A stretch of DNA of 64,000 nucleotides from Eucommia ulmoides (Eukaryota; Streptophyta; Magnoliopsida; Garryales; Eucommiaceae): NCBI GenBank assembly GCA_016647705.1, contig CM028328.1:50019647-50083646 (forward strand). The letters run 5' to 3'. How positions within the stretch are numbered: position 1 is the stretch's first letter; every line of letters begins with the position of its first letter. Positions 3,701-46,127 of this stretch are shown here, one piece after another. A program made the translations under genes and the position numbers. The notes beneath the pieces are model-generated. The model was given only the letters and a program-made list of their open reading frames with translations. It did not search any database and had not been told where the DNA came from.

Positions 3701-5052
3701 TTTTAGTGATGTGCCTCTTCATTATCACCTATTATTTACAACAACAATAACAAAGTCTTTGTACCACCGTATTAGGATTGGCTATATGAATCCTTTTGCG
3801 CCATATAGATCGTTTAAGGGCCATTCACTCCGATAACTTCAAACCTATCAAGTGGTTCCTAATTGCGTAATCTCACGTTTTCTTGGGTCTATTCCCCTCC
3901 CCGGAGCACCTGCCGTTTGAATTAAATCACATTTTCGCACCAGTTCGTCTTCAGGTTTTTTATACACATGTCCAAACCACTGGAAACAATTTTTTTCCTA
4001 CTTATCTTCAATAGATGCTATTCCTAATCTCTCGCTAATAATCTCATTCCTAAGTCTATGTTTGCTTACTATTCATCCACCTCAACATCTTCATATTTGC
4101 TACCCCTACTTTCTGCACCTGCCTTTATTTACGACCCAACATTCTAAACCATAGAGGATTGCCGTTCTTATTGCAGTTTTGTAGAACTTTTGTTTCAATT
4201 TCAGTGGTATTTTATGATCTGAAATCATCTCAACTGCATTCTCCACTACATCATGCCTCGACTTTGTGTGTAATGTTCTCCTCAATTTCTACATTCCCCT
4301 GAAGTGTAGAACCTAAGTATTTAAAATTAACCCTAGGCAACCCTAAGTACTTAAAATTAACCCATCTTGAGTGTGTTTCGTCACTTCATTCATCACTAAC
4401 CCCAAGAGGTTGTTGACCCACAAGAATGAGAGGTAATCTTAAGGTTATATGATGCTTGAATAATTGGATAATTGAATGAATGTCAATTAATTCATAGACT
4501 TGTAGGAAAAGAAAACCATAAACCTCTAAGAAAAAAAAAAAACTAGTCCTAATATTTGTAGGAAACGAAAACATAAAAATAGAAAACAAACTAGTTCTAA
4601 TACTTGTAGGAAAAGAAAAATAAAAATAGGAAAAAACGAAAATCCTAGTTGAACATGGAAACAATAAATAAAATCTTGTTTACCTAGATTATAATAATGC
4701 CTCAGGGGTACAAAACTTCTAATGATTTGTTAAATATTGATATGATATGGCATGATGTGATTGGTTTTAAAGTTAGCTCAACCTGCCAGTGATGGCCTAT
4801 TATCCACTTCGTGACCAATCAAAACTATATCGAGTTTATCAGTACTTGCAAGTTGGGTTGTTCGTGGGCCTGGAGGCATGTAAGTTGGGTTGTTCGTGGG
4901 CCTGGAGGCATGTATAGCCCGCCCAACACACAATTTTAGGGATTACGGAGAATTTAAGCCCAAGGGCTGGGTTGGGACTTCAATAGGGCCGGGATAAGGC
5001 CTAAGTTTTTATCTTTAGGTCTGGCTCGACCAAGTGATTTATCATTATTTAA

Positions 5053-5092
<40 letters not shown>

Positions 5093-8000: not shown

Positions 8001-11000
8001 TGTATGATTAATTTCAATGTGGAAAATTAATTCAGGAAAATATTTATATTGGACAATATATAATATTCGGTAGAAATATTTTGGTTGTCCCTTATCCTTT
8101 AGTGTACTTATTCTATATCTTTATACTGTTCCTTCTATTATTATTTTTTTCACTTGTAAATCCTTATGAAGAGTTGGGGACTGTACTTATAGAGGGAGCA
8201 GCTGCTGTTTTTGTTGGGAAGGCAAAGCCTTATAGTCTATAAACATACCATAATTCTGGAAATGAAAATTGGAGAAGGTCATTGGCTGAATGTTTTGGGT
8301 TATAGCCAACTCTTCAGAGTATTTTCCAACGCCTATTACTAGCCAACTCTTCAGAGTATTTTCCAACGCCTATTAATCAGCTAAATAATGAATCACCTGC
8401 ACTTTTTTTCCCATCTCGGGCCATTGTCGACTTGGACCCTTTCAAATAGCCTTTTTAGACATTCATTTTCCTTATTTTGATGATGTATGTTGATTTTTCA
8501 ACTCAGAAATGCTTAATGGGCAATCATCATGTTCTTTGTGTAGATTTTGGATGATGATGGAATTGCAGCTCCTGGAGAAATAATTAGATCACGTGACATT
8601 TATATTAATAAGCAAAGTCCAATTGTTACGAGGGGGGCAATGGTTCCACCCACGGGATTGCCTGATAGGTAAGCTTTTCCTTTATGAAGTGTATTTTTTT
8701 TCTTTTTTCTTTTTTGTCTTAATTTGTTTGCAGCAATAATGCTTAATATATTTATTACACCCAGTGCATATAAGTCCAACGTACAAAGGTACTCAGGGTC
8801 TGAAGGGGTGACATCTGTTGTGGATAGAGTAGCACTTTGCTCTGACAAGGATAACAATTTATGTATTAAATTCATGATTCGGCAGACTCGTAGACCAGAG
8901 GTAAGTAGTTCAAATTCAATTTGGTAATGGTGAGTAGTAACTACACGTTTATTCTCATTTGCGTGTGTTTGTGCTCATCTCTTCTCCTCTCATGTGCACA
9001 CAAAAAAAATTATTGTGTGTTTATTTTACTCAGCTTGGCGACAAATTTAGTAGTAGACATGGACAGAAAGGAGTTTGTGGCACCATTATTCAACAGGAAG
9101 ACTTCCCATTCACTGAACGTGGCATTTGCCCAGATTTAATTATGAATCCTCATGGATTTCCCAGGTATTGTGATTTTTGGCCCAAGGCTCTGTATCTGTT
9201 ATGTTTGATGTAAAGATTGATGAAAACAAACGAAAATTAGAAATCTGATACACACTACTATTATTAGTAGCTGGGGAATGAAATGAGGGTAGTCACAATT
9301 TTGAAAGACAGTGTTGCATTGAATGGATACGCTGTGTCATAGTGCATGTGTGCTTTACCACTGAACAACTTCTATCCTATTCCTGGCTAATTATGCATTG
9401 TTATTGTGTTTTCAAAGCACGTAATTGGAAAAAGAATTTAATGGGTACATGCAGCGATACCAAGTTGAATGCTGTGGTTAATTTGCTATGGATACCAGGT
9501 AAAATTACAGCAGCGGGGCCAGGATTTTATCTCTGCAGGGGCGAAAATACTAAGATTTATCTTATTTATTTTGGTTCTTTAAAATTTTTTAGGACAATTT
9601 TTCAAGCAGCAATACTCGCATTATTGGTCAGTAATTGTGTATAAGATCCAATGTTCTCTCTTTTTTTTTCCCCTTTGAAGTATGCATCAGTTGTAGAAGA
9701 TTTTTCCTTATTAAAATTAAATAAAAATTATCTTAATTCTATTAGAACTAATAATTCAAATATAAGTGGCATAAAAAATTGTATAATTAACTTTTAAAAA
9801 TGGTGATATGCAATACTGAAAATTCAGATGTTTATAGTCACAGCAAAAAAAAAATAAATAAATAAAAATAAAAATATCGATATTGAAAAATGTTCAAATA
9901 AATATTCTTAACTCCTTACAGTTAAGCAGAGAAACATATTCTAAATTTAAATGATCTTTAAAGTTAAAATTCCAAAACTTTTCATACCAAATAGGGGGCT
10001 TTTGTTGTATGAAAACATTCTTGGATTTGATTTGTATTGTGAATTTTGGTAAAGATACATTTTGGTGATATTTATGCTCAGTAATAATGAACTTTAGTAA
10101 TGATAGATCATTAAACATGATTGAGAAAGGGGCACTTCTTAAATGTATAAAACTTACAAGTTGCTAAACATATGAAGAACATGTCACTTGAAACTGAGGG
10201 GGGGGCCGTGGTCCCTGTAAGTAATGCCACTTTCCGCCTTTGAATAACAGGATTAAGGTTAAAGGAGGAGATGAAGAATAGAAATGGAAAAGAGTGCACC
10301 CATTCAAAATTTGATTCCACTACCGCCTACCAAATAAGATATAAAATGTTTCTCGTAATTGCCTAGACATTTGTTTAGCTAATCTATTAGTGTCTCATTC
10401 GCTAAATATGATTATTGAGCATGTAGATTCTGCATTAGAGAATATTTAGCAAGTCATGTGAAGGAGTGTCAAATAATTGTTTGGTACATGTTCACCATGG
10501 TGGCTTCTATTTTGAAATGTCCTTGTTTCCTAGCTTATTTTGATGGCAAAGTGACATCCTCGCAACCTCTTAACACGTATCTAAACAAATTGTCTCTACC
10601 ATGTTAATCTTCAGCCGGATGACTGTTGGAAAGATGATAGAGCTTCTTGGCAGTAAAGCTGGAGTGTCAAGCGGTAAGTTTCATTATGGCAGTGCATTCG
10701 GCGAACCTAGTGGTCATGCTGACAGAGTTGAAGCTATAAGGTGCACTATTTCTCATTGGTAGAACCTCTAATTTTGCGGTTCTGCTTTCTGATCATTATT
10801 TCATGCTTTTGCAGTGAAACCCTTGTGAAACATGGTTTTAGTTATAGTGGCAAGGACCTTATTTATTCAGGTTTGTCTTATATATTCCCATCATCTATCA
10901 AAACTTCATTTACTGTACTGTTTGATTTAAATCTATAAAAGATTAGGGTAAAGGAAAAACGTTGTTTAAATACACGTCAACCGGCTTACCTTTAAGGCAT

Positions 11001-24139: not shown

Positions 24140-24569
24140 AATGTCAATATTTAATTTTAATTTAAGTAATAAATGGTATATTTGACAAACAAAGAAGGTT
24201 CATAGAAGAATCTTGGCAGAACAAGGGAAGATTTATAGAACCAACATTTTAAAATCAACATTCTGTTTTCAATGTTTAATTTTTCAGCTTTATCAACACA
24301 CCTATGTTCTTGGATGATTTGGAACTTTATGCAGATGGACAATCTTTAACTTATGGCATGATACTTAACATGAAAGGAAGGGAAGAGAATAGGCACTGGA
24401 AGAGATTTGGGAGTGATTCCATATTGGTTCCAGAATTAAAATTAGGAGTGTACATTCTTCTACTAAAGATCGATGGTTATTTTGGGAAACTGAGCTTTCG
24501 GTTCCCTTGGTATTTTAGTAGATAAACTTAAACATTGAGATTAAAGGAAGTGAATTGGCTTTAGGATAT
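24140..24569. other. Unassigned spacer
   Basis: A short open stretch (24304-24525, +) translates to 73 residues with no motif I recognise. There is no other evidence for a gene here. Confidence 0.5.
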
Positions 24570-27199
24570 TGTTGGCCCAGAGATTGACCCAAGAAGGGGG
24601 GAGTGAATTGGGTATTTAAAAACTTTTCTTTTCAACTACAGAATCTGTCTACTAAAATCTCAATTGAAATTTGATAGTTCTTATGATTGTGTGTACAACG
24701 GAATAATCAATCAAACCAAAATAACCATTGTAAAGAGTAAGGGATAGAGATAAACAAATCAAAAGACACGAGATTTATAGTAGATCGGAAAAATACTTTG
24801 CCTAGTCTACTCCTTCGCGCTCCCAACGGAGAGTTCTAATAAACTAATCCTTAATCTTGTTACAGGTGAAAATTAAACCATTTACAGTCTTCTTACGGAT
24901 GAAGATTAAACCTTTTACAATATTCTTACGGGTAAAGATCAAACTGTTTACAATCTTCTTTCTAGCGAGATCGATCCATCACAACCAAAGACGTCTTATT
25001 TGGTCTTCTTCAACTTCTTCACAAGTTGATCTTTGATGTGGTGTTCCTTGAGGATCTTTTTGCTTGGATGTTTCTATAAAGTACAATCTCTCAATGCAAC
25101 ATTCAGAATGGTTTTGTAATCTAATTTACAAAAATCGACCTTGGAGTTCTAAACACTCTCTACAAAGATTACAATATTTTGACTCACTAGTGTTTAGTGC
25201 TTTTCAGAAATATCACTCAATAAAAGATCTTTGAATATAATCCTTTGTAATTACTTGTGTGTGATCTTACTTATCCCAACTGTTTGACCTTCATTTATAT
25301 AGCCAAATATGGTATAATATCAACCAAGAATGAAGCTGAATGTCCTCATAACTGTTGCGTCTTGTCCCTTAGATCATTATGGCAAAGAGGCTCCTTAGAA
25401 CTAGGTCTTCTTAGTAAATTTCTAAATCTGCTGCAACTTTTTTCCTTAGAAAATTGATCATATCTTCCAAATATTTTAAGTAGGACCCATATTCCTTTAT
25501 GGTTTTAAATTCCTTTGACTAAGCTTTCCAACTATATATGGTGCATCTGATTTCAACAAGATTTGAGAGAGATATGTTATTTTGAATAGACAAAGGTTCA
25601 ACTCAGATTTTTTACTGGTAGCTACTGGTTGTTTGAATTAATGAGAATTTTGACCAGATATTTCAATCTCAAAATGTGCATATCAAGAACATATATAAAG
25701 AGTATTTAATTATCATTCAAATGGCTCAAGAATCAACTCATTTAGACATAAAATGAGTGAGATATGCTCATTTAAGTAAACAAAGGTACATACAAGATTT
25801 TTAACAAAAATCAACTGTTGTTTTCTCAGAAAACGTTCAGATTTGAAAACCCAAAAATATTTTACCGATATGAAATTAATATAGTGTGAAATATATTTGA
25901 ATTAGCTTTCCAACCATATAAGATTCATTAATTTTGGACAAGTATTGAGAGAGTTATACCATTTTAAATACACAAGAGTTAAGATCCACATTTTCTGGTG
26001 GTAATTTGAATAAAGAGTATAAAACCATTATAATGATCATAAATACAACCTAAGATTTGTCTAAAGTCTAGACAACAAGTAGGTGGAGTAATAAATATCA
26101 TATATTGGAAATATTTAGCTCCATGTCATTAATGAGAATTATTATAAAAGTCAAATAAGGTTGCTAAAGCAAGATTTGTTTATACTCTCATGGAATCTTG
26201 TATATATGTATAATGTATATACAAATTTCGTGTATGTAATTTAAATACCATGTATATAAAGTATATTATACATATATATCATCACATATATCATTTTCAT
26301 GAGATATAATAGAATTAAATATATGGTGTAGTAGATTTCATGCAAAAACATGATTTTTCATACAATATAGTAAAAATGTCAATTAATCATCCATCTAATG
26401 TTATCAACTTGATTACATATATCATGAATATATCTTAATCAAGCATATAATAATATATTATGAGCAATGACAATAAGATTAGTCATGTAAAACCAAATTT
26501 TTTCATTTTAAGAATATTGATAAAAATATTAAAATTTCATATATGCATGTATTGATCAAACCAATCATATATATCATGATATAAACTCATATTGAACATG
26601 TTGAACATATTATATCATGATATAAACATATATAGAGCTTTTTTTTAGCATGCTTGATCAAGTAGAGCATGCAATGTATCTTATGATCACACGTTTTCTT
26701 AATTTAAGCGTATTGTGACCAATATGTGATTTTTCCAAATAATCAGGTGTTGAACAATCCAATCACATGTATCATGATATAATAAAATAATAAATATATT
26801 CAAATCATAATATCATGAATGTATGCACTCTCGCAGTGTGTATGTGCATTCTAACGAGTCAAAGTATATAATTTCTTCAAGAGTAACATCCTATAAACTT
26901 AATTTTACATAAGTCTTATGCTCTTAATATCAAGATTATACCTATATTTCACACTTCAAATTTCGTAGTGGTTAGCATACATAAAGAATAATTGAATCTT
27001 AATACTTGCACTTAAGATATCACTTTGATTAGTACACTCAAGGTATGATTCAATAAAATACATTGGAACATATAATTTGTATCTAATAATATCAATGTGA
27101 CATTCTCATCATATCACTAATATTGACGTCATCAAAACATATATTATGACATCATCAAAACACATAATTTGACATCATTAAAACACACATATATCAACA
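24570..27199 (-). mobile_element. Solo LTR of a SIRE-like copia element (2.63 kb, inverted)
   Basis: Read on the minus strand it begins TGTTGATATATGTGTGTTTT and ends GGGCCAACA, with the CCCAATTCACTCCCCCCTT stretch typical of this LTR type just before the end. Flanks are GATAT (24565-24569) and AATAT (27200-27204), a 5-bp duplication with one difference. No PBS, purine tract or coding sequence adjoins either side. A 33-bp motif is repeated three times at 24860-24958 (TTACRGRTGAAGATTAAACC type). Confidence 0.7.
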
Positions 27200-27204
27200 A
27201 ATAT

Positions 27205-29637
27205 GGTGATACTACTAGAGTAAAAAAAGACCCAATTGTAGGTTGCAGAAGTGGACCGCACTATAGGAAAAGCATAACATCATTTTAAAGTTGTTGTTCA
27301 GGTAAATATTGGTCCAATTCATTGCATATATATATAGTAGAATAGAGAGTACAATAGTGAATGCAACCGAATCACTAGGTTTGATAAAGAGGTTTTCGAG
27401 ATCCTTTCGATGACTTATGCTGTGTTGAAGGGATATCTATTCTATATAATAGAATCTGATCGATTGTGTAACTTCGTGGCGGAAAAATTAGATTATTCGA
27501 GGGAGCTAGAGTGGGTAAAACTCTTAATAGAAATTACATTTATTAGAAACTCAAGTTGTATTATTGTAACGTGGGTAATAGGTGAGCCTTTGAATCAATC
27601 CTCCCAGCTTGGTTGAAGGTTCCATGCAAGAATTAAACCGAACAATAAAAAATTACAAGGTTTTAGACAATTTTGTTCTCTTTATACGATTGCAAAGTAT
27701 ATGAACTTAAGAGAAAGAGAAATACGGGTTTGATCTGATAGCGCAATTGAGACAAGGATAGGTTCTCTGCCTCTACGGGGATGGGCCGACAAAAGTTTTT
27801 AGAATTCAAACGAAGGTTACGACGAGATTAGTCATTTATCATTACGATAGGTGTCAAGTAGAAGTGAATTGATGTATGCATCTGAGGCATCCTATCAGAC
27901 CGTTAGACTTAAACCTTATTCCTATATGACTTGATCCATCTCTGGTATGAAATGAGCTACTTCAAATTGCTGTAACTTCTAGTTTGATCAGGGAAACCAC
28001 AAAAAATGAATCTGCTAATGACACCTGATAGAATATTGTTACCAAAAAGTTGAGATCCAGAAAGAGGTTCATGAATACCATCATTATCTTTTCATTGAAA
28101 TTGTTCGTTTGGAAATTTTCTGAAAAGCTAATCATAGGTTCTTCTCTCCATCAGAATAATAGGTCCGTTACGCTTATTACTAAACTTGTTGAAGAGCCTA
28201 AGTATGAGCGTCTCGTATTGGGTTGTACTATTAAACCTAAATTTTGATTATCTGCAAACTACGGTGGAGCGATTATTTTCGCTAGCTACTGATAAGAAAC
28301 GTTCCATTCCTTGTCTGACACATGAGTTTTTTTTTTCGAGTGGTCGCCAGGGGTTTGGAACCGATGCTAGTAAAAAATGTCATTCCACTTGGTTAGTGGG
28401 GACAGACGAGCAAGATCTCATCTTTATATTCAACCTTACATAGCTGGAGTTGAGCCCGACAGAGGATGATTGAAAAAGCTACCAAAGCCACAGAATGAAG
28501 CAGACTACCGTAGAAATTGAAAAACCGATCAACACCTTGCTTTCCGTGGCATTCTTGTAGGTATTTAGGTAGATGGAGATCTACTTCCCATCTTGTCGAG
28601 CATAATTTCCATTCATAAGAATATCAATTCTTAATAGAAATTAGAGTCTACTAGAAAGTCTATTTGTATTTCATGATGATGATGAAATCATATTCTTTTC
28701 GTTTCAATTTTGATTTTTTTATACTGAGATTGACCGATACGTCTAATTACTAACTGACCAAGTTGATCTAGAGAGAGAATAGACATGTGAGAATGAAATG
28801 CTGCATTGAAAACTTCGTTCCAGGCGCCTCTCAATGACAGTTGTTGTATTGGGAAGTAAAGAGACCAAACTCTCCCTTCTTGTATGAGGGAAGATAAGTG
28901 GTTTGTGGTGGTGAAGGATGCGTTCTCTATCTCTGATTGCTTTCCATGTAAAAAATTGCTAGATGACTTAAATTTAACAACACGATCATCTGAAGGGTTA
29001 CCTAGTTTGTTGCATCACTCATATATTCTCATCCTATGGCATGTGGAGACTGGGCTTTGATATGTTGTGGTTAAAAAACTTCATTTCCAAGAGTAGGATC
29101 AATTTCTAGAGGAAGAGGAGAGTTGTTAGCAGAAGCAAAGATTCAGGACAAAAGCAGAGGAGAAATGTTGCAAGGAGAAGTAGCAATGTTATCGCAGCAG
29201 CCTTGAAGTCTTCCTTGCGATGGAAGCACAAAATGCTAGTCCTCTTGTGTAAGGCTAGCAGAAATGTATAAGATATTGAGTGTTTATGGCGTAGAGCTGA
29301 GAATTGGAAAATTCAAAGATGCGTGATGAAGGAGACCAATTAAAAAAATAAAATGAAAACTACTACTACTACTACTACTACTAATAATAATAATAATAAA
29401 ATAATATTGCTCAAATAATTCAATAATCAATTATCAAATATGTCTTTCTATTACAATAAAACCTCATTATATAGGTAAAAAATAATGGTTACTTGACAAA
29501 ATAAGAATAATGGCTACTTAACGGTTACTTTATTGGCTATACATATAATTAGCTACTGTAGGAAAAAAGAATAATGATTTTTCTGCTTTTGCCATACATA
29601 AGTTTGAAGCAGTGGCCTCGATCGATCCCCATCAATG
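27205..29637. other. Unassigned 2.4-kb block between two solo LTRs
   Basis: Composition is less AT-rich than its neighbours, and the text (for example 27400-28650) reads more like organellar or old coding DNA. Two weak open stretches, 27410-27616 and 28050-28247 (+), give proteins without recognised motifs. A TTCTTAATAGAAATTA word recurs near 27509 and 28630. I cannot assign a function; an organelle-derived insertion is a guess. Confidence 0.35.
29358..29402. repeat. (CTA)n(ATA)n microsatellite
   Basis: A run of ACT triplets passing into AAT triplets. Confidence 0.9.
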
Positions 29638-29642
29638 GGTAT

Positions 29643-31812
29643 TGTTGGCCTAGTAGAATACCCAAGAGGGGGGGGGGGGGAATTGGGTAATTAAAAATAT
29701 TATCAGAATATACTTGAATAAATTAAATAATTAATTTTATACCTAAATTAATTATTATCTTTATATCACAGCGGAATTAAAATAAATTTAAGTGCATACC
29801 CAAACAACAAAAAAAAAAAAAAATTTAAAAAAACAGCACACCAGAGATTTATACTGGTTCACCAAGTTACTCTTGGCTAATCCAGTCTCCCGAGCTCTAC
29901 AGAGATCGTACCCACTAAAACCAAGATTCTTTTAAAGATAGGAACCAAACCCGCACACCGATTCTTTTACAGGCTTAGAATCAATCTTTACAATTTTCTT
30001 TTCTTAAGTTAAGGAATAACCTCTACTTTTTACAAATTAAAGAATAACCTAATTCTTTTTAACATAAGACTCAAGAATCACAACCTCACCAAAACACTCC
30101 AAATATCCTTTTACCCGGTAAGGATTGAACCGTTACAAAATCACTCAAAACAAAAACGCAATTCTTATCCAGGAAAAATCACTACTTTAATCTCTTTACA
30201 GAAAGAGACTAAAACCCTGCTACCCTTGATTAAATATCCCTAATGATATTTAATCCGTCACAACTTACCAATACAAAAATTGATAAGTAAATCTTACTCG
30301 AAACTTCTACCACCCCAGATAAATAAAAACTCAATCAATATCCCAACTAGTGATAGAAATATGTGAGATGTAGAAATATGATTTTAATAAGATATGGGTA
30401 GTAAATTGGAGCACATAATCAGATTCAAAAAATTATTTGAAAAAATATTTTCTTCAAAAATCAAAAGCAATTTCTAAGATCAATTTTCAAATATAAAATA
30501 ATAAATAAGCAATAATCAAAATGGAAATATCTCACTCGGAATCCATAGTATTAATGATTAGAATAATGTAACTTCAATTCTGGTATCAACAAAAATTGAT
30601 CGCAGTTGATTATTAGAATCACTCTTAGAACAACTCTCAATGATATAGAATGATAATTCTTATAAAAGTTCTCTCAAAATGATATAAAGTGATTATCTCT
30701 CTTAGAATGATTAGCTTTACTTAGAAAATTCGCAGGTCTATCTAGAAACATATGTAATCAGTCTTCTAACGGCTAGTTTACAAGTGTCATGACAATGAAA
30801 TACTCTTATAGACCCCTTATAATATAAGGAATTCATTTAGGTTCAATTTCACTTAATAATAACTTTTAAAACTCTCAATTAAATCTTCAAAATATTTCTC
30901 AATCAAAATAAATAAGTGTAGAATCTATTTTAATTACCAAATTGAGAAACATTAATATTTAATGAATCATATTGAAAGGATTTAATTAGTATATAAACCA
31001 TATCTTAAATATAGAGAATATCCCTTAAATCTCTCTCAAATCCTAATAAAAAATGACTATTTTTGGATTTAAAATCGGATCAAATAATATCCTGAACCAG
31101 CACATTCAGTTGACTGCCTAGTCGACTGCCCAACGCTGCTTGCAGCCAAACCATCGCCGCAGCAAGCGTAGGTCGATCGCTCGATCGACTCGCATATTCA
31201 GAGAGTTTGTCATACTTCCACCGGTCGACCGCTCGGTCGACTCGCAGATTCAGAGAGTTCAGATATTTTTATAGGTCGACCGATCGGTCGACTCTTCAAT
31301 TTAGGATGTTTCATCTTCCTTCTCCGGTCGACTCCTCAGTCGACTGCCTCCTTCTGAATCACTTTCTCTGATCTCGTTTTTAACCTACTTTCTTTTTTGA
31401 TTTCGCCCCTCTATTCATTTTTATATTTAAATAAGCTCCACTAATATTCTTATATTCCCTTTTAGTCATTCAATTTTTATTTTTTTTTAATTCACATAGG
31501 AGCAAATAAATATACTTAACAAAAACACACATAAAAGATAAGATTCATTTTGTGCTATGTATGTGTTCTTAAATGAGATATTAAGATTTAATATTTACCT
31601 GGGTTGTTTTCCCTAATTTATTCAAACTCTTAATACTTCTTTATCATCTTGATATATTCATTAAGCATCCATTCCGTTTGACATCTTCATTTAGCATCCA
31701 TTCCGTTTGATATCTTCATTACAGGAACTTTAAATCACTGAAACACTTGATCAAATATTAGTTCCACCAAAACATCAACACTTAATTGTTCATTAAAATC
31801 TTGAGATTAACA
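29643..31812 (-). mobile_element. Solo LTR of the SIRE-like copia family at 46806 (2.17 kb, inverted)
   Basis: The minus strand begins TGTTAATCTCAAGATTTTAA and ends GGGGG...GGCCAACA. It matches the LTR at 46806-48962 in order and length (2157 bp there). A perfect 5-bp target duplication GGTAT lies at 29638-29642 and 31813-31817, and neither side has a PBS or internal region. This is the classic product of LTR-LTR recombination. A 12-base G run (29671-29682) and clustered GGTCGAC palindromes (31150-31350) lie inside. Confidence 0.85.
31150..31350. repeat. Cluster of TCGAC/GGTCGACC palindromic words in the LTR
   Basis: At least eight TCGAC-containing words, including GGTCGACCGCTCGGTCGACT and GGTCGACCGATCGGTCGACT, are separated by a repeated CAGATTCAGAGAGTT spacer. 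The homologous part of the LTR at 47260-47470 has a diverged version of the same cluster. Confidence 0.8.
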
Positions 31813-31817
31813 GGTAT

Positions 31818-33246
31818 GCACTCAAAAATTGATACAAGAGTTGCCTTGCTAAATTTTTAACAGTTAAGGGGCTGAATGGATAAAATTGAACTTGAATAGC
31901 TTATTTGGAACAAGTGACAAAATATAGTAGTGTCTGTTGTAGTTTGGTTATAATTCATTTTTGTATTTATACCGCCTATAAATAAGTTCACTCTCAATCT
32001 TGTACAAAAGTCTATATATGAATTGAATTGTATTATTCTTGACATCAATGGAACTCTTTATCCTACCTAAGTCGTGTTATTATGATCAGTTTTCGCTACT
32101 TCTACCCCTTCTGTCTTCTCTACTTTACTCCTATCATCCATCATGGAAGTAACAAATTAGAAAGGGGGCTTCTGTGTTATTATTTAGGGCGCTTACCAAG
32201 CAATCCAAAAAAGATATCAAAACTACCAATTAAATCCGTAACTTTTTCTGTAAACCGAGCATTCCTTATAATATTTTCGTGACTAAAATGCCCCTATTTA
32301 ATGCACCACTTCATAACATCATGTAATCAACTCCCCCTGATGCAGAACTAATTTAGGTAACATGGGATCATAAAAGGTGGAACAAAAATGCTTGTTTTAA
32401 TTTGAATCTGAACGTAAAACACCAAATTTTTTACACATCAATTATGTGCGAATAATTCTCTTTAAAATGAGATATCAATCAAATTTTTTGGAACTGTTTA
32501 TCATAATAAGTATGAATGTTACATGTAACATTTATTTATTATTTAGACCATGTAACATGTACTTACGGTTGTCTCTATTTAAAATGTAGCATGTTGAATG
32601 TAACATTTGAACAAATAGTTGAATCATATTTAATGTAAATGTTACATGTAACATCTTATAGTTCTTGTGATACCAATGTTGAATGTAACATTCGGCATTT
32701 GATATTAATTTTTTTTTTTTGGAGTTATAAATTGGCATACATGTGGATATTATATATAACATTAACTGTGATGTTATTCTGTAGATCACGTAATTGTTGA
32801 ATATAATTTCCAATATAATAGAAAAATAAAAAAATCTGGAAGTACCATGTTGAATGTAACATGAATATGAAAATTGAAACTAATGAAAAAAAATAGTGAA
32901 TTTGATATTGTTTTGAAGATTTTATTTAGATTAATCTGAATATATAATTAGATTGTGAAAAAAATATGTACAGAAATAATTATTTTAGTTTTAATAAAAT
33001 GATTGTTAAATATGAAAACTCTCGATCCCTATTATCTTACAAGAAAAACAAATAAAATGATTCTATTGAATATGAAAACTCTCAATTCCCATAGATCTAG
33101 TAAGGGCAAATATGTCAATGAAAAATATGTGGATTTAAATTTGGAAAATCCACCGTGCATGTAAAATGTGTTATAGGAGCTCTTGATTTATTATTAAATC
33201 AATGGAATTAGTCAGTAATTTGGTGTTTAATTTAGGTATTCCTAGT
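31818..33246. repeat. Spacer with palindromic ATGTTACATGTAACAT motifs
   Basis: The perfect 16-bp palindrome ATGTTACATGTAACAT occurs at 32516-32531 and 32639-32654. Imperfect forms (ATGTTGAATGTAACAT) lie near 32591, 32677 and 32849. An LTR-like stretch (GCCTATAAATAAGTTCACTC, near 31975) resembles the words near 1-130 and 33250-33390. No gene is seen. Confidence 0.6.
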
Positions 33247-35337
33247 AATTTTTCCTATTATTTATGTTGGTTGTGTATTGCCCATAAATAAGTCTACTAT
33301 CCTGAATCGATTTGTCTTGCGTTTAGATATGTATTACCCATTAATAAGTCGACTATCAACCTCGTAAAGTGTTGCACCGTGTTGTTCATGACATTAGTGG
33401 ATTATTATCCTTCGTAACTCCTGGTACTGAGCCCAGTTTTTCCCTATAATCCATAATCCACTACCTTTTTTTTTTTTTCACAGCAATGCCAAACATTGTT
33501 TATTCTTCTTGTGAAAAGTTAGAACTTGGAACCCTTCTTGTTCTCCGTTCGTTGCTTCAAAATTATGTAAAAATTTGTTTGACTCTTACAATGGCATTCT
33601 GTGAAAACCTCAAAATCCTTCTCAAAACGAGTTCATATTTCATCCATACCGATCATTATTTCATGTTACCGTTTTGTTCTTGTGAATGAAACATCATTGT
33701 TTGCATATTAATTATGAAAGAATGGTGATTTCCTATCCGGGAAAATTTTTCCTCCATGATTCACTCGAAACTGTTCTTTGTTAGCTGGTTATTGTGGCAA
33801 AATTTCTTCCTGTGTTTTATTAGCTTCATTCAAGTCAAAGGGTGATCTATTCTCGTTGCTACTTTTCTTTTCAATAGTAAGTGTGAACAAGGAGAGGCAA
33901 CTATTGGTTGTACTCGGTGTTGATTATAATTTTATAGGATTATGTTGGGAACAAGCGGTTGGAGCTATCTGGCCAATTATTATTCCTACTTTTTGAGGTA
34001 ACTATTTTTTTAATATATTCGGACCCAAAAGCCTACTTTTGATTTATTTCTTTGTGGATGTATCTTAGACTGGTAAGTTTTTGTAGGATTTGTTGAAGAA
34101 CGAATGACGAGGCCAAGAAGACGGCTGATCTGAAATTAGCAAAGCCAAGTAGGTCTTTCAGGTTTGACATTTCTCAAGTAAGTTCTCGACACATAACTAT
34201 CTTGCTTGAATAAGACTACTATGAAATCCATTACGAAGTGCATGCATTTCTACATCACACTGAAGTTCTCAGAGAAAAAACCTCCATCATCATATCTCCT
34301 TGATTTGTCCTTGCCTTTTGTCTCTCTCCCCTTTTCACATCTGGAAGCTTACATGTATATTTTGGGTTTCATTCTGTATTTTAACTTTACTTGTAAGCTT
34401 CATATTTCCAGTCAATAGGGAAAGATATCATAACTAAAGGCTTAGGAAGATCACTTTCTACTGGCAACTGGGATGTGAAACGTTTCAGAATGCACCGTAA
34501 GGGCATGAGACAGGTATATTCTGCTTTACAACTTCGTTTTCGTTGACATAGAATAGATGCCCCCCACCCATGTAAGAAATAACACAGTATAACTTACAGA
34601 AATTTCGTCTTGTAGGCTGTAGAGAGACTATCATATATCGCAACCTTGGGCTACATGAAAAGGACCTTACCACATTTTGAGAAATGAAGGAAAGTTAGTG
34701 AACCAAGAGCGTTGCAGCCTAGCCAGGTGAGGGATAATAAAGCTAAGTAGTTTATAGCTTGTTTGAATTTGATTCCTTCAGGTTTTGAATGTGCAACTTC
34801 TCTCTATGTTTTGATTTTGTACGTGTGCACTTGCTGCTCAACTTCTATTGCAGTGGGGCATGCTTTGTTCCTGCGACACTCCAGAAGGTGAAGCTTGTGG
34901 ACTGGTGAAAAATTTGGCCCTTATGACTCACGTTACAACTGATGAAGAGGAGGGCCGTATTTTTTTTTCTTTTTCCTATTAAATCATTTTTATGATCATT
35001 ATGTACTAGGGGCGTGTCTTTTAAGATGGAAGAACCAGTGGGTAGTAAACCATCTCGTGAAACTAGGAGAGTCCTCTAAATGTACGCCTTGTTTTGCGAT
35101 GTTTCAGTATAACATATATATCGAGTGGTTTGGTAGGACTAGATGTGCTATTTGTCTGGACAGAGTGGAGTTGGAGTTACCACGTGTTAAGCTGTGGCTG
35201 ACGAAGAGCTTTGTGGTAGAACCACCTTTCAGTGCAAAGAAATTACAAAGTTTTGTTCTATTTATTGCTAGTAGAAACTATTGTATGATCTAAGATATGG
35301 GTTTTGCTTCAGTTAAATCTATAATAATTCTTGTACT
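33247..35337 (+). pseudogene. NRPC2 segmental duplicate (five exons with introns), disabled
   Basis: Collinear with 1-2152 at high identity, introns included, so it is a DNA-level duplication and not a retrocopy. Exon equivalents: 33938-33997, 34087 onward, 34412-34513, about 34619-34726 and 34855 onward. Lesions: a 2-bp loss in the second exon creates a shift and an immediate TGA (the parent reads LFKTMNDE there); TGA at 34685-34687 replaces a Ser codon in the FEKSRK segment; and about 15 bp are lost across the end of the fifth exon, removing its splice donor. No further NRPC2 exons follow. The copy passes straight into the 35338 tandem array. Confidence 0.93.
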
Positions 35338-35784
35338 TCAAAATGACTACCGATATAAATCGGGTGAGCAAATTAGGTTCGAGAGAATTTATTGGGCCGA
35401 GCTGAAGTATTTTTTGTGGTGTAAACATGTTTGCTTAACAAACAAACACCCTAAAAACTAAAAAGTAAAAGGCAAAACAATTTAAGAAATATATAAATCG
35501 CATTAACAAATAATAACAATAATAACATCCAGCTGCTCAAGCAATTCCCCCATTCGTCGACCTCCCCTTTTCAGAAATACCTCTTGTTCGTAAACTTACA
35601 GAGGGAGCCAGGGTGAAGCGCTGTTGTGGAGAGAGAGCACCGAGCAAAGAGACTTATCGGAGCAGTGAGAGGGAGCAAAGAGGTAGGAGCACCGACTCAG
35701 TTTCTTCTTCCATATATAAATGGCTGTTGTTGAGATTGAACCGACACGAGAGAAGCGGCAAAGTAAAATAAATAGCTGTTTATC

Positions 35785-35993
35785 ATGGTGGTTAAAACAA
35801 ACTCAACCATGCCTGAAAATAAACAATATGGGTAGGCGCATCTTCTTTCAGACTATAGTGTTTTTTTTTATGTGTATTTGTACATTTATCTATTGTTTTT
35901 AGGACTTTTAAGTTAGAATTTGACAAGTAATTCGTCGTTGCTCCGGTGATATTTGCCGTCGACAAATTTCAACTTATTCCTGAATTCTTAAAC
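35785..35993 (+). pseudogene. NRPC2 exons 1-2, array copy 1
   Basis: Exon 1 is 35785-35831 (donor GTAGGC) and exon 2 is 35903-35993 (donor GTAAAT). The phases agree (2 nt carried over). In exon 2 the CAG of DKQF is TAA, a premature stop. Confidence 0.7.
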
Positions 35994-37047
35994 GTAAATA
36001 TATGTTTTTATTTGTATAAGTACAATGTAAACCAATGTATAAAGGAATTGATTTTGTTATTTTTAGTTCCGTACCTTCTTTTGTCTCAGTTGCTGTAGAA
36101 AGTAAAAGGAACGAAGCTACCAAATTTTCTTGAGTTGAGTCACGAACTAGGTAGCCTTCTTTAAGACGTTTCACGATTCTGCCTAAAATTGTGTAAGTAG
36201 TATAACAGCCCCGTCGTCCCCAGAATATAGCAGCCGAAAATTATCCTCTGTCTAAGACCTCCTCTGCACGGAAGAATACCTAAAAACCAAACACCCTAAC
36301 ACATTGCTTGAAAAGCTAAACAATGTTTTTAAAAGTAAACTAGAGAAAGAGATCATTTTTTTTTGGTATGTTGAAAAGTTGAGGTAAACCTCGGTATTTA
36401 GGCCAAATTAGAAATCGGCTAGAAAGTGTCGAGTAGGATTCATGGAGAGATACGTGGGAAACTAGTGAGAAAATCGAGGGATACAGGTGAGAGAATCATG
36501 GTGAAAAATCAAAAAATCGGGTTACAATCAAAACATAATTATTTAATAAAAAAATATTTTTTTATTAAATAAATTTCATCCAAAAAAAATAAGCGTCACC
36601 TCACCTCACCTCACCTCTAAATGACTACAAATATAAATCGGGCAAGTAGATTAGGTTTGAGAGAATTTATTGGGCCGAGCTAAAGTATTTTTTGTGGTGT
36701 AAACATGTCTGCTTAACAAACAAACACCTTAAAAACTAAAAAGTAAAAGGCAAAACAATTTAAGAAAATGTAAATTGAATTAATAATAACCAGGCGCTCA
36801 GGTAATTCCTCCATTTGCCGACCTCCGATTTTTTGGAAATATCTCTTGTTTGTAAAATTATAGAGGGAGCCAGGGAGAAGCGTTGCTATGGAGAGAGAGC
36901 ACTGTGTAGAGAGACATACCGGAGCAGCGAGAGGGAGCAGAGAGGCAGGAGCACCGACTCAGTTTCTTCTTCCATTTTTAAATGGCTGTTGTTGAGATTG
37001 AACTGATACTAAGTGAAGCGATAAAGTAAAATAAATAGTCATTTATC

Positions 37048-37122
37048 ATGGTGGTTAAAGCAGACTCAACCATGCCTGAAAATAAACAATATGGGTAGGC
37101 GTTTCTTCTTTCAAACTATAGT

Positions 37123-37166
<44 letters not shown>

Positions 37167-37290
37167 GTGTATTTGTACATTTATGTTTTTTTTTTTAAGG
37201 ACTTTTAGGTTAGAACTTGACAAGTAGTTCGTTGCTGCTCCGGTGAAATCCGTCGTTGACAAATTTCAGCTTATTCCTGAATTCTAAAAG
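37048..37290 (+). pseudogene. NRPC2 exons 1-2, array copy 2
   Basis: Exon 1 is 37048-37094 and exon 2 is 37200-37290. CAG is replaced by TAG after FDK-like residues, and a second stop (TAA) lies near the exon end. The intron has an expanded T run (about 37129-37163). Confidence 0.7.
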
Positions 37291-38359
37291 GTAAATATAT
37301 GTTTTTATTTGTATAAGTACAACATAAACCAATTTATAAAGGAATTGATTTTGTTATTTTTAGCTTCGTACGATTTGTTGTCTCTATTGCTACAGAAAGT
37401 AAAAGCAACGAAGTTACCAAATTTTCTTGGGTTGAGTCACAGACTAAGCTGCTCTCTTTAAGTCGTTTTGCGACTCAACCCAAGATTGTGCAAGCAGTAT
37501 AACAGTCCTGTCCTCCCCAGGATAAAACAATCCAGAATTCTCCTCTATTTAAGACCTCCTCTACACGGAAGAAGACCTGAAAACGAAACACCCTAACATA
37601 CTGCTCGGAAAACCAATTTTATTTTTTATTTTTTTAAGTAAACGAGAGAGAGAGCTTAAATTTTTTTGGTATATTTAAAAGTTGAGGCAAACCTCGGTAT
37701 TTAGGCCAAATAAGAAATTAGCTAGAAAGTACCGAGTGGGATTCATGGATAGATGCGTGGGAAACTAGTGAGAAAATCATGGGATACAGGTGATAGATTC
37801 GTGGAGAAAAATGAAAAAATCGGGTTATAGTCCAAAAATATTTATTTAATAAAAAGGCAATATTTTATTAAATAAATTTTATCCAACAAAATAAGCGTCA
37901 CCTCACCTCACCTCTTAATAACTACTGATATAAATTGGGTGAGCAGATTAGGTTCAAAAGAATTTATTGGGCTGAGATGAAGTATTTTTTGTGGTGTAAA
38001 CATGTTTGCTTAACAAACAAACACTCTAAAACTAAAAAGGAAAAGGCAAAACAATTTAAGAAATATGTAAATTGCGTTAACAAATAATAACAATAATAAT
38101 AACCAACTGCTCAGGCAATTCCTCCATTCGTCGAACTCCCCTTTTTGGAAATACCTTTTGCTAGTAAACTTACAGAGGGGGTAAGGGTGAAGCGCTGCTG
38201 TGGAGAGAAAGCACTAGGCAGAGAGATGTGACGTAGCAGTGAGAGGGAGCAGAGATGTAGGAGCATCGACTTAGTTTCTTCTTCTAGCAGTAAATGATTG
38301 TTGTTGAGATTGAATAGACATCGAGTGAAGCGGTAAAGTAAAATAAACAATTGTTTATC

Positions 38360-38553
38360 ATAGTGATTGAAGCAGAATCAACTATGCCTGAAAATAAACA
38401 ATATTCGGACTATAGTGTTTTTTTTACGTGTATTTGTACATTTATTTGTTTTGTTTTTTTTTGGACTTTTAGGTTAGAATTTGACAAGCAGTTCGTCGCT
38501 GCTCTAAGGAAATCCGTCGTCGACAAATTTCAGTTTCTTCCCAATTCTTAGAG
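38360..38553 (+). pseudogene. NRPC2 exons 1-2, array copy 3
   Basis: The start codon is ATA, not ATG, at the aligned position. The exon 1 donor is deleted together with the following ~20 bases. The acceptor AG is changed to a GG context. Exon 2 (38464-38553) keeps the DKQFVAALRKSVVDKF reading but is shifted near its end. Confidence 0.7.
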
Positions 38554-39585
38554 GTAAATATATGTTTTTATTTTTTTTGTATAAGTACAATGTAAACCAG
38601 GGTATAAAGGAATTGATTTTGTTATTTTAGTTCCGTACCTTCCGTTTTCTTTGTTGCTACAAAAAGTAAAAGGAATGAAGTTACCAAATTTCTTGGGTTG
38701 AATCGCGAACTTAGTCGCTCTCTTTAAGACGTTTCGCGGCTTTGTCCAAAATTGTACAAGCTGTATAATAACCCTGTCGTCCCCAAAATAAAGCAACCTA
38801 GAACTCTCCTCTGTCTAGAACCTTCTCTATACGGAAGAAGACCTGAAAACCAAACACCCTAACACACTGCTTGGAAAGCAATTTTTTTAAAGTAAACCAG
38901 AGAGAGCTCAATTTTTTTTTTGTATGTTGAAAAGTTGAGGCAAGCCTCAGTATTTAGGCCAAATTGGAAATCGGCTTGAAAGTACTGGGTAGGATTCATG
39001 GAGAGATAAGTGAGAAACTGGTGAGAAAATCGTGGAGAAAAATTAGGAAATTGGGTTACAGTCAAAACACATTTATTTAATAAAAAATAATATTATATTA
39101 AATAAATTTTATCCAAAAAAATAAGTGCCACCTCACCTCTAAATAACTACCAATATAAATCAGGAAAGCAGATTAGGTTTGAGATAATTTATTGGGCCGA
39201 GCTGAAGTATTTTTTGTGGTGTAAACATGTTTTCTTGACAAACAAACACCATAAAAAGTAAAAAGTAAAAGGCAAAACAATTTAAGAAATATGTAAATTG
39301 GTTTAACCAATAATAACATTAATAATAACCAGCCGCTCAGGTAATTCCTCCATTTACCGACCTCCCCTTTCCGGAAATACCTCTTGTTAGTAAACTTATT
39401 GAGGGAGCCAGGGAGACGTGCTGCTGTGGAGAGAGAGCACTGAGCAGAGAGACGTACCAGAGCAACGAGAGAGAACAGAGAGGCAGGAGCACCGACTCAA
39501 TTTCTTCTTCCATCTGTAAACAACTGTTGTTGAGATTCAACCGACATCGAGTGAAGCAATAAAGTTAAATAAACAGTCGTTTATC

Positions 39586-39794
39586 ATGGTGGTTAAAGCA
39601 GACTCAACCATGCCTAAAAATAAACAATATGAGTAGGCGCTTAGTCTTTCAGACTATAGTATTTTTTTTTATGTGTATTTGTACATTTATTTGTTTTTTT
39701 GAGGACTTTCAGGTTAGAACTTGACAAGCAGTTTGTCGCTTCTCTGGTGAAATCTGCCGTCAACAAATTTTAGTTTCTTCCTGACTTCTGAAAG
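39586..39794 (+). pseudogene. NRPC2 exons 1-2, array copy 4
   Basis: Exon 1 is 39586-39632 and exon 2 is 39704-39794. Exon 2 starts correctly but has TAG after the NKF residues and TGA near its end. Confidence 0.7.
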
Positions 39795-40899
39795 GTAAAT
39801 ATATGTTTTTATTTGTATAAGTACAATGTAAACCAATGTATAAAGTAATTGATTTTGTTATTTTTAGTTCCCTATCTTTTGTTGTCTCTGTTGCTGCAGA
39901 AAGTAAAAGGAATGAAATTACCAAATTTCCTTGGGTTGAATCGCAGACTGGGTCGCTCTCTTTAAGACGTTTCGTGGCTCTACTCAAGATTGTGCAAGTA
40001 GTATAATAGTCCTATCGTCCCTAGGATAAAGCATTCCCGAATTCTTATCTGTCTAGGACTTCCTGCGCACGGAAGATGACCTGAAAACCAAACACCCAAA
40101 CACACCGCTCGGAAAGTCACTTTTTTTTTTTTTAAGTAAACCAGAAAGGGAGCTCAAATTTTGTTGGTATGTTGAAAAGTTGTGGCAAGCCTCAGTAATT
40201 TAGGCCAAATCAGAAATCGGCTAGAAAGTGTCGAGTAGGATTCATGGTGAGATACGTGGGAAAGCCTCAGTAATTTAGGCCAAATCAGAAATCGGCTAGA
40301 AAGTGCCGAGTAGGATTCATGGTGAGATACGCGGGAAACTGGTGAGAAAATCATGGGTTACACGTGAGAGAATTATGGAGAAAAATCGGGTGAGCAAATT
40401 AGGCTCGAGAGAATTTATTGGGCTAAGCTGAAGTATTTTTTGTGGTGTACACATGTTTTCTTAACAAACAAAACACCCTAAAAACTAAAAAGTAAAAGGC
40501 AAAACAATTTAAGAAATATATAGATTGCATTAACAAATAATAACAATAATAATAACATAAAAAAATGTATTTTGGAAATTTATAAATTGCATTAACAAAT
40601 TATAAGAATAATAATAACATAAAAAAATGTCCAAATTTCAATGTTCATAATAAAATTTAAACAACAACAATAATGGCAGAAGCCAAATGTTCAATGTCCA
40701 TGATAAATAAACATAATAAAAATTAAGAAGTAAGAACAAAAATGATATAGAGTCCACAATGCAAACTAGCAAAAAGTAAATTATTTCAAACTTAATTGCA
40801 AAGCACAATCTAATGATCAATAATCATAGATGTTTGATTCAAGATAATTGTCATCCGCAAGCCCTACAACATAAATTGAAGATTATTAATAAAAAGTAG

Positions 40900-41700
40900 A
40901 TCAAGATATAGAATTAAAGACTATTAATAGTAAAATATAATTTATAAATACCGAAGTAAAATTCTTTGATTCTTCAACACCATCCATTGCATTTCTAAGA
41001 CTAATTGGCTTTGTTGAAAAATGAAACCAATCTTGCGTAGAAATGAGAGCCTCCACAACATTTGGTGGCAATGAACTCAAAAAAGGATCAAGTATATGAC
41101 CCCATGTGCTAAATGGTGATTCTGAAGCGATGGTAGACATTGAAATTGCAAGAGCATACCGTGCAATAATAGAAAGAACAAGATATCTAGGGGCATTAAT
41201 CTTCCACCAAGCTAAATACATCAAACCTCTTTGCATCTTCTTCAACACTCACAACTAGATACTGTCTTACCTCACTTTTTTTCTTCAAATGTACCTACCT
41301 TCTCCAAGTACCTTTTAAATTGAGACATCCACAAAGCCATTCGATCTCTAGGGCCACCACTACATCCCTTTTTCACCAATGGTTCTCTCTCACCTTCAAA
41401 TTATGAGAAGAATCCCTATTTTCAAGTGCCGCATAGGAATCATACAAGCAAGAAACAACTTAATTCACCTTTTCAACCAACTCACAGCTTTCACATCATC
41501 ATACAATGTCCCAAAACAATATTCAACGAATTGCAACTTTAAGCGAGGATCAAGAATCAACCCAACAAATAACAATGGATTCATATTAGTGAAGTTCCCC
41601 AATACCTATCAAATTTTATTTTGATATTTTGTGCCATTGATTTCAATTTAAAAGTCCCTCCATTACATTTCTCGTCAGTTGTATCTCATGTCATTACTAG
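40900..41700 (-). pseudogene. hAT transposase C-terminal remnant
   Basis: The minus-strand open stretch 40901-41248 carries the hAT C-terminal dimerisation signature: WWKINAPRYLVLSIIARYAL, then STIASESPFSTWG, LDPFLSSLPPNVVEALISTQDW. Upstream on the same strand (41250-41640) are older parts of the domain (IKFDRYWG, PLLFVGLILDPRLKL) broken by frameshifts and stops. The N-terminal BED finger and catalytic part are absent. It resembles RICESLEEPER-like domesticated or active hAT proteins, but the decay indicates a transposon relic. Confidence 0.85.
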
Positions 41701-42033
41701 TTCCATAAAAAAAGAATAGCAAGTTGTATAGACTACAAAAAATGCACAGTTATATCATATAAGAGTTTAAGAAATTTAATAAACAACCTAACCTTCTCCC
41801 AATTTTCATTTTCTGGAGGTCCCAAAATTTCCCTTCTCACTCTCCTAGTTCCATCGTCATCTCTTTCATCGCCCTCTTTTTCTCTCACATTCGCCGATTA
41901 TTTATTTGAAGCTCCCTTGACAACATCATTCCAGTTAATAATCAATATATCCTATAATTAGTCATCTTAGGAAAATTTATTTTTATCAAAGTCGTCTTAA
42001 AAAATATATTTTTATCAATTAATGTTTATCAAC

Positions 42034-42844
42034 TGATGAGAATCAACGAGCACCATCAGAGGATCAGTTACATGTTCCAGTTAGGCCTATTACTAGGGAA
42101 AGATCCAAGAAAAGTCAAAATAGTACTTAATGGGCTAATTCAAGAGACTTGGCCCATGTCTACAATATTTAAGCCCAAATTAGGCCCATCGGGCAGTCAA
42201 GGCCAAATTCATCTCATCAAAGCAAGCGAATGGGCTTAGACATGAACTCAAATGGGCCAAGTCATGTGGACCACGAAATTCTTATCATATTTATTTTATT
42301 ATTTAAGTCTTTTAATTAGTTTTAGGCTGATTTGTAAGCTTGATTACCGAGTAAATCATTTCCTTTTCCAACTAAGAATGTAAGCCAAATTAGGAAGTTT
42401 CCTTATTCTTTATTTAACAATTAGATTTTAGAGTTTCCTTTTTCCTCCATGAAGACCCACGAATTTCAAAGTGTATTAGGGTTTCTTTCTTATTCTCTTG
42501 GTCGCCTATTTAAGGGGCTTTGTAGACCTACGAATTTCACATTACTTTGATTAATAAAAATTGTAAGAGTTTTCTCTTTAGTTCTTCAGAGAACTTTTCC
42601 TAAACTTATCAAGAGTTTCTTGTGGCGTTCAAACTTATATCTTTGATTCATGATTCATTATAATCATTGGGTCAAGATCATTATACCATTGGTTCGCGTT
42701 TCATTCATAAACGTTGGGTCAAGGTAATCTATCTTTCAACTTTTGTATTTTTTAGCTCGTTCAAAATCTGATTTAGTTTCGATCTTCGCGAAGAAATCCT
42801 AAGTTGGTTTCGGGTCTCACTAATCCTTGGTGAGGTTCGCATCA
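42034..42844 (+). repeat. Gypsy 5' LTR (811 bp)
   Basis: Starts TGATGAGAATC and ends TTCGCATCA. TATTTAAGGGGC, near 42506, is a plausible TATA region. Confidence 0.9.
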
Positions 42845-45283: not shown

Positions 45284-45311
45284 GGACGAATCATTTTGAA
45301 GAGAGGGGGAA

Positions 45312-46122: not shown

Positions 46123-46127
46123 TTAAC

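Follow-up and report, generated by a model that had tools for sequence, protein, structure and literature searches.

The window considered here, a stretch of 64,000 nucleotides from Eucommia ulmoides (assembly GCA_016647705.1, contig CM028328.1, positions 50,019,647 to 50,083,646), contains part of NRPC2, the gene for the RPC2 subunit of RNA polymerase III, followed by a pseudogenic second copy of the middle of that gene and, directly abutting this copy, a short tandem array (Table 1). Repeat families with four or five copies, at spacings of 1225–1312 nt, lie between 35,335 and 40,556. Units 2–4 are 82–84% identical to unit 1, and because BLAST E is 0 for each of them, a chance likeness is excluded. 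The first-pass annotation had described such an array, and it is confirmed as four diverged units plus a partial fifth, except that the fifth does not carry a leader and exons: it is a hAT piece only, which continues into the remnant of a hAT transposase. Over 33000–41500 there was no Rfam match at the gathering score, and ARAGORN (bacterial code) returned no genes over the window, so a structured RNA or tRNA in the array was rejected. In the literature, mainly freely accessible papers, we found no description of the array.

Table 1. Features of the NRPC2-derived array and its surroundings (window positions unless C4 is given)
Feature	Position	Strand	Description
Parent NRPC2, part within window	578..9210	+	578-2155 aligned to middle copy; Rpb2 domain 6 at 8941-9210
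Second copy of NRPC2 middle	24141..35339	+	Blocks 24141-24572, 27201-28453, 32178-35339; corresponds to window -2786..2155
Tandem array	35,340-40,382		Four head-to-tail units, ~1.25 kb each, plus partial fifth
Unit 1 hAT piece	35340..35526	-	Non-coding end of hAT-type element; TATAAAT 35354, TGGGCC 35393
Unit 1 NRPC2 5′ end	35527..36088	+	~246 nt leader/upstream, exon 1, intron 1, exon 2, start of intron 2
Unit 1 LTR piece	36089..36617	-	Probable copia-type LTR fragment, antisense to NRPC2, joined inside intron 2
Unit 2	36618..37913	+	hAT 36618-36787, NRPC2 5′ end 36788-37385, LTR 37386-37913
Unit 3	37914..39139	+	hAT 37914-38100, NRPC2 5′ end 38101-38652, LTR 38653-39139
Unit 4	39140..40382	+	hAT 39140-39326, NRPC2 5′ end 39327-39889, LTR 39890-40382
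Fifth piece and hAT element remnant	40383..42038	-	Collinear with C4:49680265-49681963, 81% over 1754 nt

Each unit is made up of a hAT piece (170–187 nt), an NRPC2 5′ end (552–598 nt) and an LTR piece (487–529 nt), such that about half of it is transposon sequence, and each of the three parts has separate matches elsewhere in the genome. The parent gene's own 5′ end had been predicted to lie upstream of the window, and an intact NRPC2 5′ end is found there, 27.6 kb away (C4:49,992,066-49,992,616); its exons join in phase, and exons 2–4 match RPC2 of Pol III. Aligning these true exons 1 and 2 with the units, the check that had been proposed, bears out the derivation of the units from NRPC2: over the GA-rich leader, exon 1 and exon 2 they are 81–87% identical to the parent counting gaps and 87–89% ungapped (unit 1, 87% to C4:49992071-49992612). 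The homology begins ~246 nt upstream of the start codon, and the parental DNA beyond that point is missing from the units. Besides the parent and the four units, C4 carries at least one rearranged copy of the 5′ end and C9 a match of 55 nt, a lower bound given that 40 of 78 candidates were scored; the remaining scored matches fall in a dispersed repeat in intron 2 only, and among the same 40 a stretch of the parent's exon 3 was matched at the parent only.

The LTR piece has relatives in at least 36 further dispersed places at 70–83% identity (40 of 1475 candidates scored), among them five same-strand pairs that lie 4.7–8.3 kb apart. Between three of the five pairs (L017, L018 and L019) lie copia-type domains, in opposite orientation to the unit's match, and from such pairs flanking copia-type ORFs we infer that the antisense piece is a copia-type LTR. 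Its junction with the NRPC2 5′ end is shared, within a base or two, with a copy at C4:49667763-49668348, ~387 kb upstream of the array, and the NRPC2 5′ piece has therefore been copied at least twice.

The hAT piece of unit 1 matches C4:49681783-49681970 (91%) and C5:32680698-32680878 (94%), and also the flank of the transposase remnant at 40383-41248, where an ORF (40907-41248) encodes the hAT transposase dimerisation domain PF05699 (E 1.4e-15). Terminal inverted repeats of the hAT element, sought by eye in two of its relatives, were not found. It is inside this piece, and outside the NRPC2 sequence, that the TATAAAT and TGGGCC motifs lie which had been taken as promoter-like; unit 3 has TGGGCT in place of TGGGCC, and the leader of unit 1 contains one further TATAAAT. 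In the parent, neither motif occurs within the 1 kb upstream of the start of homology, which contains a single TATAAA, so they do not represent an NRPC2 promoter.

The exons, described earlier as joined in correct phase, are so joined in the parent, but in all four units the pair is disabled: unit 1 has one in-frame stop, units 2 and 4 have two each, and unit 3 has lost its first ATG, has a deleted intron-1 donor and contains a frameshift. Intron 1 and part of intron 2 can be aligned to the parent in every unit, and exon changes at codon positions 1, 2 and 3 sum to 18, 12 and 17. Retained introns, disabling lesions and codon positions without constraint are what is expected of a duplicated pseudogene, while a processed (retrotransposed) pseudogene is rejected by the presence of introns. 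One observation counts against a reading of neutral decay, namely that the exons of unit 2 are less changed (7/138) than its introns (22/169). Distances among the units (K2P 0.146–0.194) and a star-like tree, with unit branches of 0.082–0.10 against 0.034 for the parent, set these four units apart from the long homogenised arrays of satellite DNA; a pairing of units 2 and 4 (support 91/92) did not reach the star threshold of the software and was disregarded.

The substitutions themselves carry a further signal. C>T changes in the units occur at 15 of 143 CG, 34 of 235 CHG and 41 of 957 CHH sites, an excess in CG and CHG together (OR 3.33, p 8e-8) that corresponds to the mutational footprint of an RdDM-silenced repeat, and the mirrored-context control gives an OR of 1.05. 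The excess is found in the NRPC2 part alone (OR 3.46, p 1.7e-4), is marginal in the LTR part alone (p 0.057), and a stricter column filter gave an agreeing result. On the parent branch the counts are 1/51 for CG and CHG versus 2/112 for CHH, too few sites for a strong unmethylated control, and in a comparison with the middle copy CG transitions are also high in both directions (OR 2.53, p 0.002, with the copy as ancestor). The pattern is as expected of transposon-type methylation and suggests that the array has long been silenced. As to the small-RNA silencing that the first-pass annotation had put forward as a possible role, the CG/CHG footprint would be in keeping with an array that is silenced.

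Taken together, the array is very probably a silenced repeat of duplicated-pseudogene and transposon sequence that arose by illegitimate recombination or replication slippage and was left to decay, rather than a set of NRPC2 promoters; it looks like ordinary pseudogene debris. As read from the junctions, the 5′ end of NRPC2 would have been copied at the DNA level with its introns, a copia-type LTR would have come to lie antisense within intron 2 of that copy (the junction common to the distant copy), and the other LTR end would have been truncated and joined to non-coding hAT DNA across a 4-nt overlap, CCTC. The ~1.25-kb segment would then have been multiplied within a short period by one of the two mechanisms named, and its units would have diverged near-neutrally under presumably heavy CG/CHG cytosine methylation. 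This order of steps is the one that we consider plausible, and no gene product or promoter role would be expected from the array.

Other origins can be envisioned. A single event, either a tandem duplication of NRPC2 or a rearranged re-insertion, may have placed the middle of the gene before its 5′ end, with later deletions and transposons obscuring the arrangement. This is possible, though we doubt it: the middle copy, which is broken by insertions and contains a frameshift and a nonsense mutation, ends exactly where unit 1 begins (35339/35340), and its divergence from the parent outside exons (~7–13% by block) is comparable to that of the unit introns (9–13%), but its largest block, at 7.3%, is less diverged than the array and the middle copy may therefore be younger; in addition, the junction is occupied by a hAT piece, and the related copy ~387 kb away shows repeated copying of the 5′ piece. 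A Pack-TYPE capture, in which a hAT element took up the NRPC2-LTR segment at a site between transposase gene and element end and the segment was then multiplied there, would account for hAT sequence at both array ends and for the continuation of the right end into a transposase remnant. It is nevertheless unlikely. On the left, unit 1 directly adjoins the middle copy and no hAT end was recognised there; in the C4 and C5 relatives the same hAT piece is followed by degenerate repeats, which this border lacks; and inspection by eye identified neither a terminal inverted repeat nor a target-site duplication. Finally, short tandem arrays in general can be mis-assembled, and yet the chance of an assembly artefact here is practically nil: nothing in this array was found to support it, the units differ by 13–17% in the NRPC2 part, which assembly errors do not create, and they have private indels and stops, including a 75-nt duplication within the LTR piece of unit 4.

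Two functional readings were also weighed against a silenced, decaying repeat. According to one, which takes up roles that the first-pass annotation had offered as inference, the units would be working additional promoters or 5′ ends of NRPC2 and would titrate transcription factors or produce sense transcripts. The leader and exon 1 are indeed recognisable and the first start codon is kept in three of the four units, but the units share no more than ~246 nt ahead of the ATG with the parent, the leader is more diverged from the parent than the introns in all four units, and the methylation-like footprint argues for silence. With the parent's further-upstream DNA absent and the motifs hAT-derived, transcription-factor binding and sense transcripts lose their basis, and we reject this most improbable reading. 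In the other, the array would be a methylated, siRNA-yielding NRPC2 homologue acting in trans on the NRPC2 5′ end. Stretches of 24 nt identical to the parent cover 318 of 553 parental bases, and given this remaining identity siRNAs against the transposon parts could spread to the gene part and tune NRPC2, an outcome that we regard as highly improbable.

Among known systems, the array resembles duplicated (non-processed) pseudogene fragments in keeping its introns and leader with disabled exons and a parent nearby on the same chromosome, but it differs from them in that four units are arranged in tandem, each containing transposon pieces. Pack-MULE, Pack-TYPE and Helitron captures join a host gene fragment with its introns to transposon DNA. 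The array likewise combines the two, but no terminal structure or target-site duplication was found around it, by eye only. In maize, CRM1TR and CRM4TR are described as tandem repeats derived entirely from centromeric Ty3/gypsy retrotransposons, with LTR sequence in the unit, which were shaped by gene conversion and for whose start intrastrand deletions are proposed and illegitimate recombination is named (PMC3648361). The array unit also contains an LTR (487–529 nt, copia-type), but mixes it with hAT and gene sequence, NRPC2 and hAT making up more than half of the unit, and its four copies form a star-like tree without homogenisation. The maize P1-wr cluster comprises eleven nearly perfect 12-kb repeats that are part of a functional allele; non-homologous end joining, recombination and transposition have shaped the region, and chimeric genes lie at the borders (PMC2686159). 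Both are plant tandem arrays, but the one here has four diverged, disabled units of ~1.25 kb.

The array illustrates how a gene fragment and unrelated transposons can be fused into one small tandem repeat, and it gives reason for caution in that "promoter" motifs within a repeat may stem from a transposon adjoining the gene fragment. Were trans-silencing of NRPC2 to prove true, it would be relevant to Pol III regulation. Independently decaying units of this kind make it possible to test in a simple way, from the context of substitutions, for past silencing, the gene-derived part included.

The array within 35,335-40,556 is made up of four head-to-tail units and a fifth piece, for which a repeat search returned spacings of 1225-1312 nt in four- or five-copy families, and identity to unit 1 is 82% for units 2 and 3 and 84% for unit 4. 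Tandem Repeats Finder was run with periods up to 500; its output does not include the ~1.25-kb unit itself, and it reports small secondary duplications within the array (e.g., 75 nt at 40,187-40,338). The window spans C4:50,019,647-50,083,646 of a 946.67-Mb genome, and when unit 1 was compared with that genome, at least 59 matches were obtained (40 of 1456 candidates scored), and these split the unit into three parts, at query positions 1-188, 190-749 and 752-1263, which correspond to a piece of a hAT transposon, the 5′ end of the Pol III gene NRPC2 and a piece of a long terminal repeat (LTR). The best interpretation is that the array is a chimeric tandem repeat, part pseudogene and part transposon, that has been silenced. 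The first-pass annotation had described a tandem array of NRPC2 5′ ends, and this is mostly real: the four units stand, while the fifth piece is hAT sequence running into a hAT remnant.

Features of the array and related loci
Feature	Position	Basis or content
Unit 1	35,340-36,617	Alignment and part boundaries
Unit 2	36,618-37,913	Alignment and part boundaries
Unit 3	37,914-39,139	Alignment and part boundaries
Unit 4	39,140-40,382	Alignment and part boundaries
Rearranged copy of NRPC2 5′ end	C4:49,667,755-49,668,075	Genome search with parent 5′ end
55-nt match to NRPC2 5′ end	C9	Genome search with parent 5′ end
Between paired LTR-piece matches	L017	rve, gag_pre-integrs
Between paired LTR-piece matches	L018	Pol_BBD, gag_pre-integrs, zf-CCHC, SH3_retrovirus
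Between paired LTR-piece matches	L019	RVT_2, E 5.8e-23

The gene-derived part matches C4:49,992,066-49,992,616 at 81-87% identity, so the parent's 5′ end does lie upstream of the window, 27.6 kb away, as had been proposed. The two exons there translate without a stop to MVVKADSTMPENKQYG-TFRLELDKQFVAAPVKSAVDKFQLLPEFLK, and exons 2-4 match the RPC2 chains of structures 5fj8 (E 4.5e-24) and 7a6h (E 4.7e-24), which we take to be yeast and human Pol III, respectively, bearing out the identification of the gene. All units break off inside intron 2, and exon 3 is absent from them. Among the candidates scored in a genome search with the first 1.1 kb of the parent (40 of 78), the four units and the C4 and C9 pieces of the table are the sole other places with the 5′ end. 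The C4 piece belongs to a second NRPC2-5′/LTR chimera (L013:7703-8349; C4:49667702-49668348), located upstream of the array at a distance of about 387 kb. This chimera extends about 60 nt farther upstream than the units, and in it a 63-nt inverted piece adjoins a leader segment that is repeated, an arrangement reminiscent of template-switch repair. Beside a GAGCAG repeat, 18 nt of leader present in all four units are absent from the parent (about 6190-6200 of L009, its locus), which suggests that the parent lost them after duplication.

The transposon parts have relatives elsewhere. Unit 1 positions 1-188 match C4:49,681,783-49,681,970 (91%) and positions 1-181 match C5:32,680,698-32,680,878 (94%). 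The fifth piece, from 40,383, continues into a remnant with a hAT dimerisation domain (PF05699, E 1.4e-15), the two together being collinear with C4:49,680,265-49,681,963 (81% over 1754 nt); coding parts of the family recur at scattered genomic sites (40 of 180 candidates scored). An LTR retrotransposon lies inside the remnant at 42034-46124; its 813-nt repeats are 96.6% identical and enclose a gag domain (PF03732), and the remnant appears to continue past it at 46122-46514.

Positions 752-1263 are likewise a dispersed repeat, with at least 54 matches, and at least 36 further places after removal of the array, the second chimera and short secondary pieces (40 of 1475 candidates scored in both cases). 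Matches on the same strand form five pairs with spacings of 4.7-8.3 kb, C15 holding three of the pairs and C8 and C12 one apiece; the remaining neighbouring matches are closer together or farther apart. Several pairs have an individual flank at one copy and a flank common to different elements at the other, and the common edge is (T)GTTGCTGCAG in unit orientation, as expected if the paired matches are LTRs. Open stretches between the pairs gave a match in four of five submitted, with copia-type domains at three loci (L017-L019), in all three on the strand opposite to the unit's match, so that the LTR fragment is antisense to NRPC2. The point where the LTR edge meets intron 2 is shared, within 1-2 bases, by the four units and the C4:49,668,07x copy. 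At the LTR/hAT junction, CCTC is present on either side, a pattern expected if the pieces were joined at microhomology. Other repeats in the window are a 592-nt tandem duplication (96%) at 55491-56674 in a copia-type element, duplicating an ORF 3′ of an RVT_2 domain; an imperfect tandem repeat at 20797-22708, with a period near 0.5 kb and an identity of about 75-82% between copies; and a 52-nt repeat rich in GTCGAC palindromes at 31170-31294, within another dispersed repeat.

The array had been taken for a set of extra NRPC2 promoters, and motifs of that kind do recur: TATAAAT at 35,354, 36,632, 37,929 and 39,154, and TGGGCC at 35,393, 36,671 and 39,193 (TGGGCT in unit 3), with two further TATAAAT in unit 1, at 35,492 (hAT) and 35,715 (leader). 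The promoter reading nevertheless fails, because the recurring motifs sit in the hAT piece and neither TATAAAT nor TGGGCC occurs in the 1-kb stretch preceding the start of homology in the parent, where TATAAA is found once, about 490 nt before that start. No account of the array was found in the literature on NRPC2 and plant Pol III, NRPC2 pseudogenes, tandem repeats of chimeric or transposon origin, and methylation; the nearest known kinds are the systems described in PMC2686159 and PMC3648361.

As to the exons, units 2 and 4 have two stops each and unit 1 has one, in exon 2, and unit 3 has a frameshift and has lost its first ATG and intron-1 donor. The units differ from the parent by 12.5-15.8% in the leader, 5.1-11.2% in exons and 9.1-13.0% in introns, and the exon changes, 18, 12 and 17 at codon positions 1, 2 and 3 summed over the four units, show no protein-constraint pattern, although in unit 2 the exons have changed less (7/138) than the introns (22/169). 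K2P in the NRPC2 part is 0.146-0.194 between units and 0.118-0.143 from unit to parent. The tree is star-like (branches of 0.082-0.10 for units and 0.034 for the parent, no inner branch fully supported by the tool), so copying and multiplication look near each other in time and the parent slower-evolving. Assuming neutral change at 6.5e-9 per site per year, the array would be some 11-15 million years old, and less if methylation sped up mutation.

Directly to the left, another copy of the NRPC2 middle occupies 24,141-35,339 (counterpart of window -2786 to 2155). Insertions break it up, and it has a 2-nt deletion as well as a stop codon at a point where the parent stays open. In its largest block, divergence from the parent is 3.5% in exons (marked by eye) and 7.3% elsewhere, the other three blocks giving K2P of 0.10, 0.10 and 0.15. 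It ends at 35,339, where the hAT piece of unit 1 starts.

Taking the majority letter across units as ancestral and pooling C-to-T with G-to-A, we counted changes in 15/143 CG, 34/235 CHG and 41/957 CHH cells, beside 39/2779 for A/T transitions. CG and CHG together exceed CHH (OR 3.33, p 8e-8, cells taken as independent), with a mirrored-context control at OR 1.05 (p 0.81); by part, the values are OR 7.35 for hAT (p 0.006), 3.46 for NRPC2 (p 0.00017) and 2.12 for the LTR (p 0.057). Numbers on the parent branch (CG and CHG 1/51, CHH 2/112) are too small for comparison. For the middle copy, OR is 1.36 (p 0.31) if the parent is set as ancestral and 2.53 (p 0.002) if the middle copy itself is; thus, raised CG transitions are not special to the array, and the CHG excess is clearest there. 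Since CHG methylation is typical of silenced plant transposons, we infer from this excess that the array has probably long been silenced. Exact 24-mers common to the parent and at least one unit cover 318 of 553 parental bases, with a longest exact match of 54 nt, which in principle would allow putative array-derived siRNAs to match the parental NRPC2.
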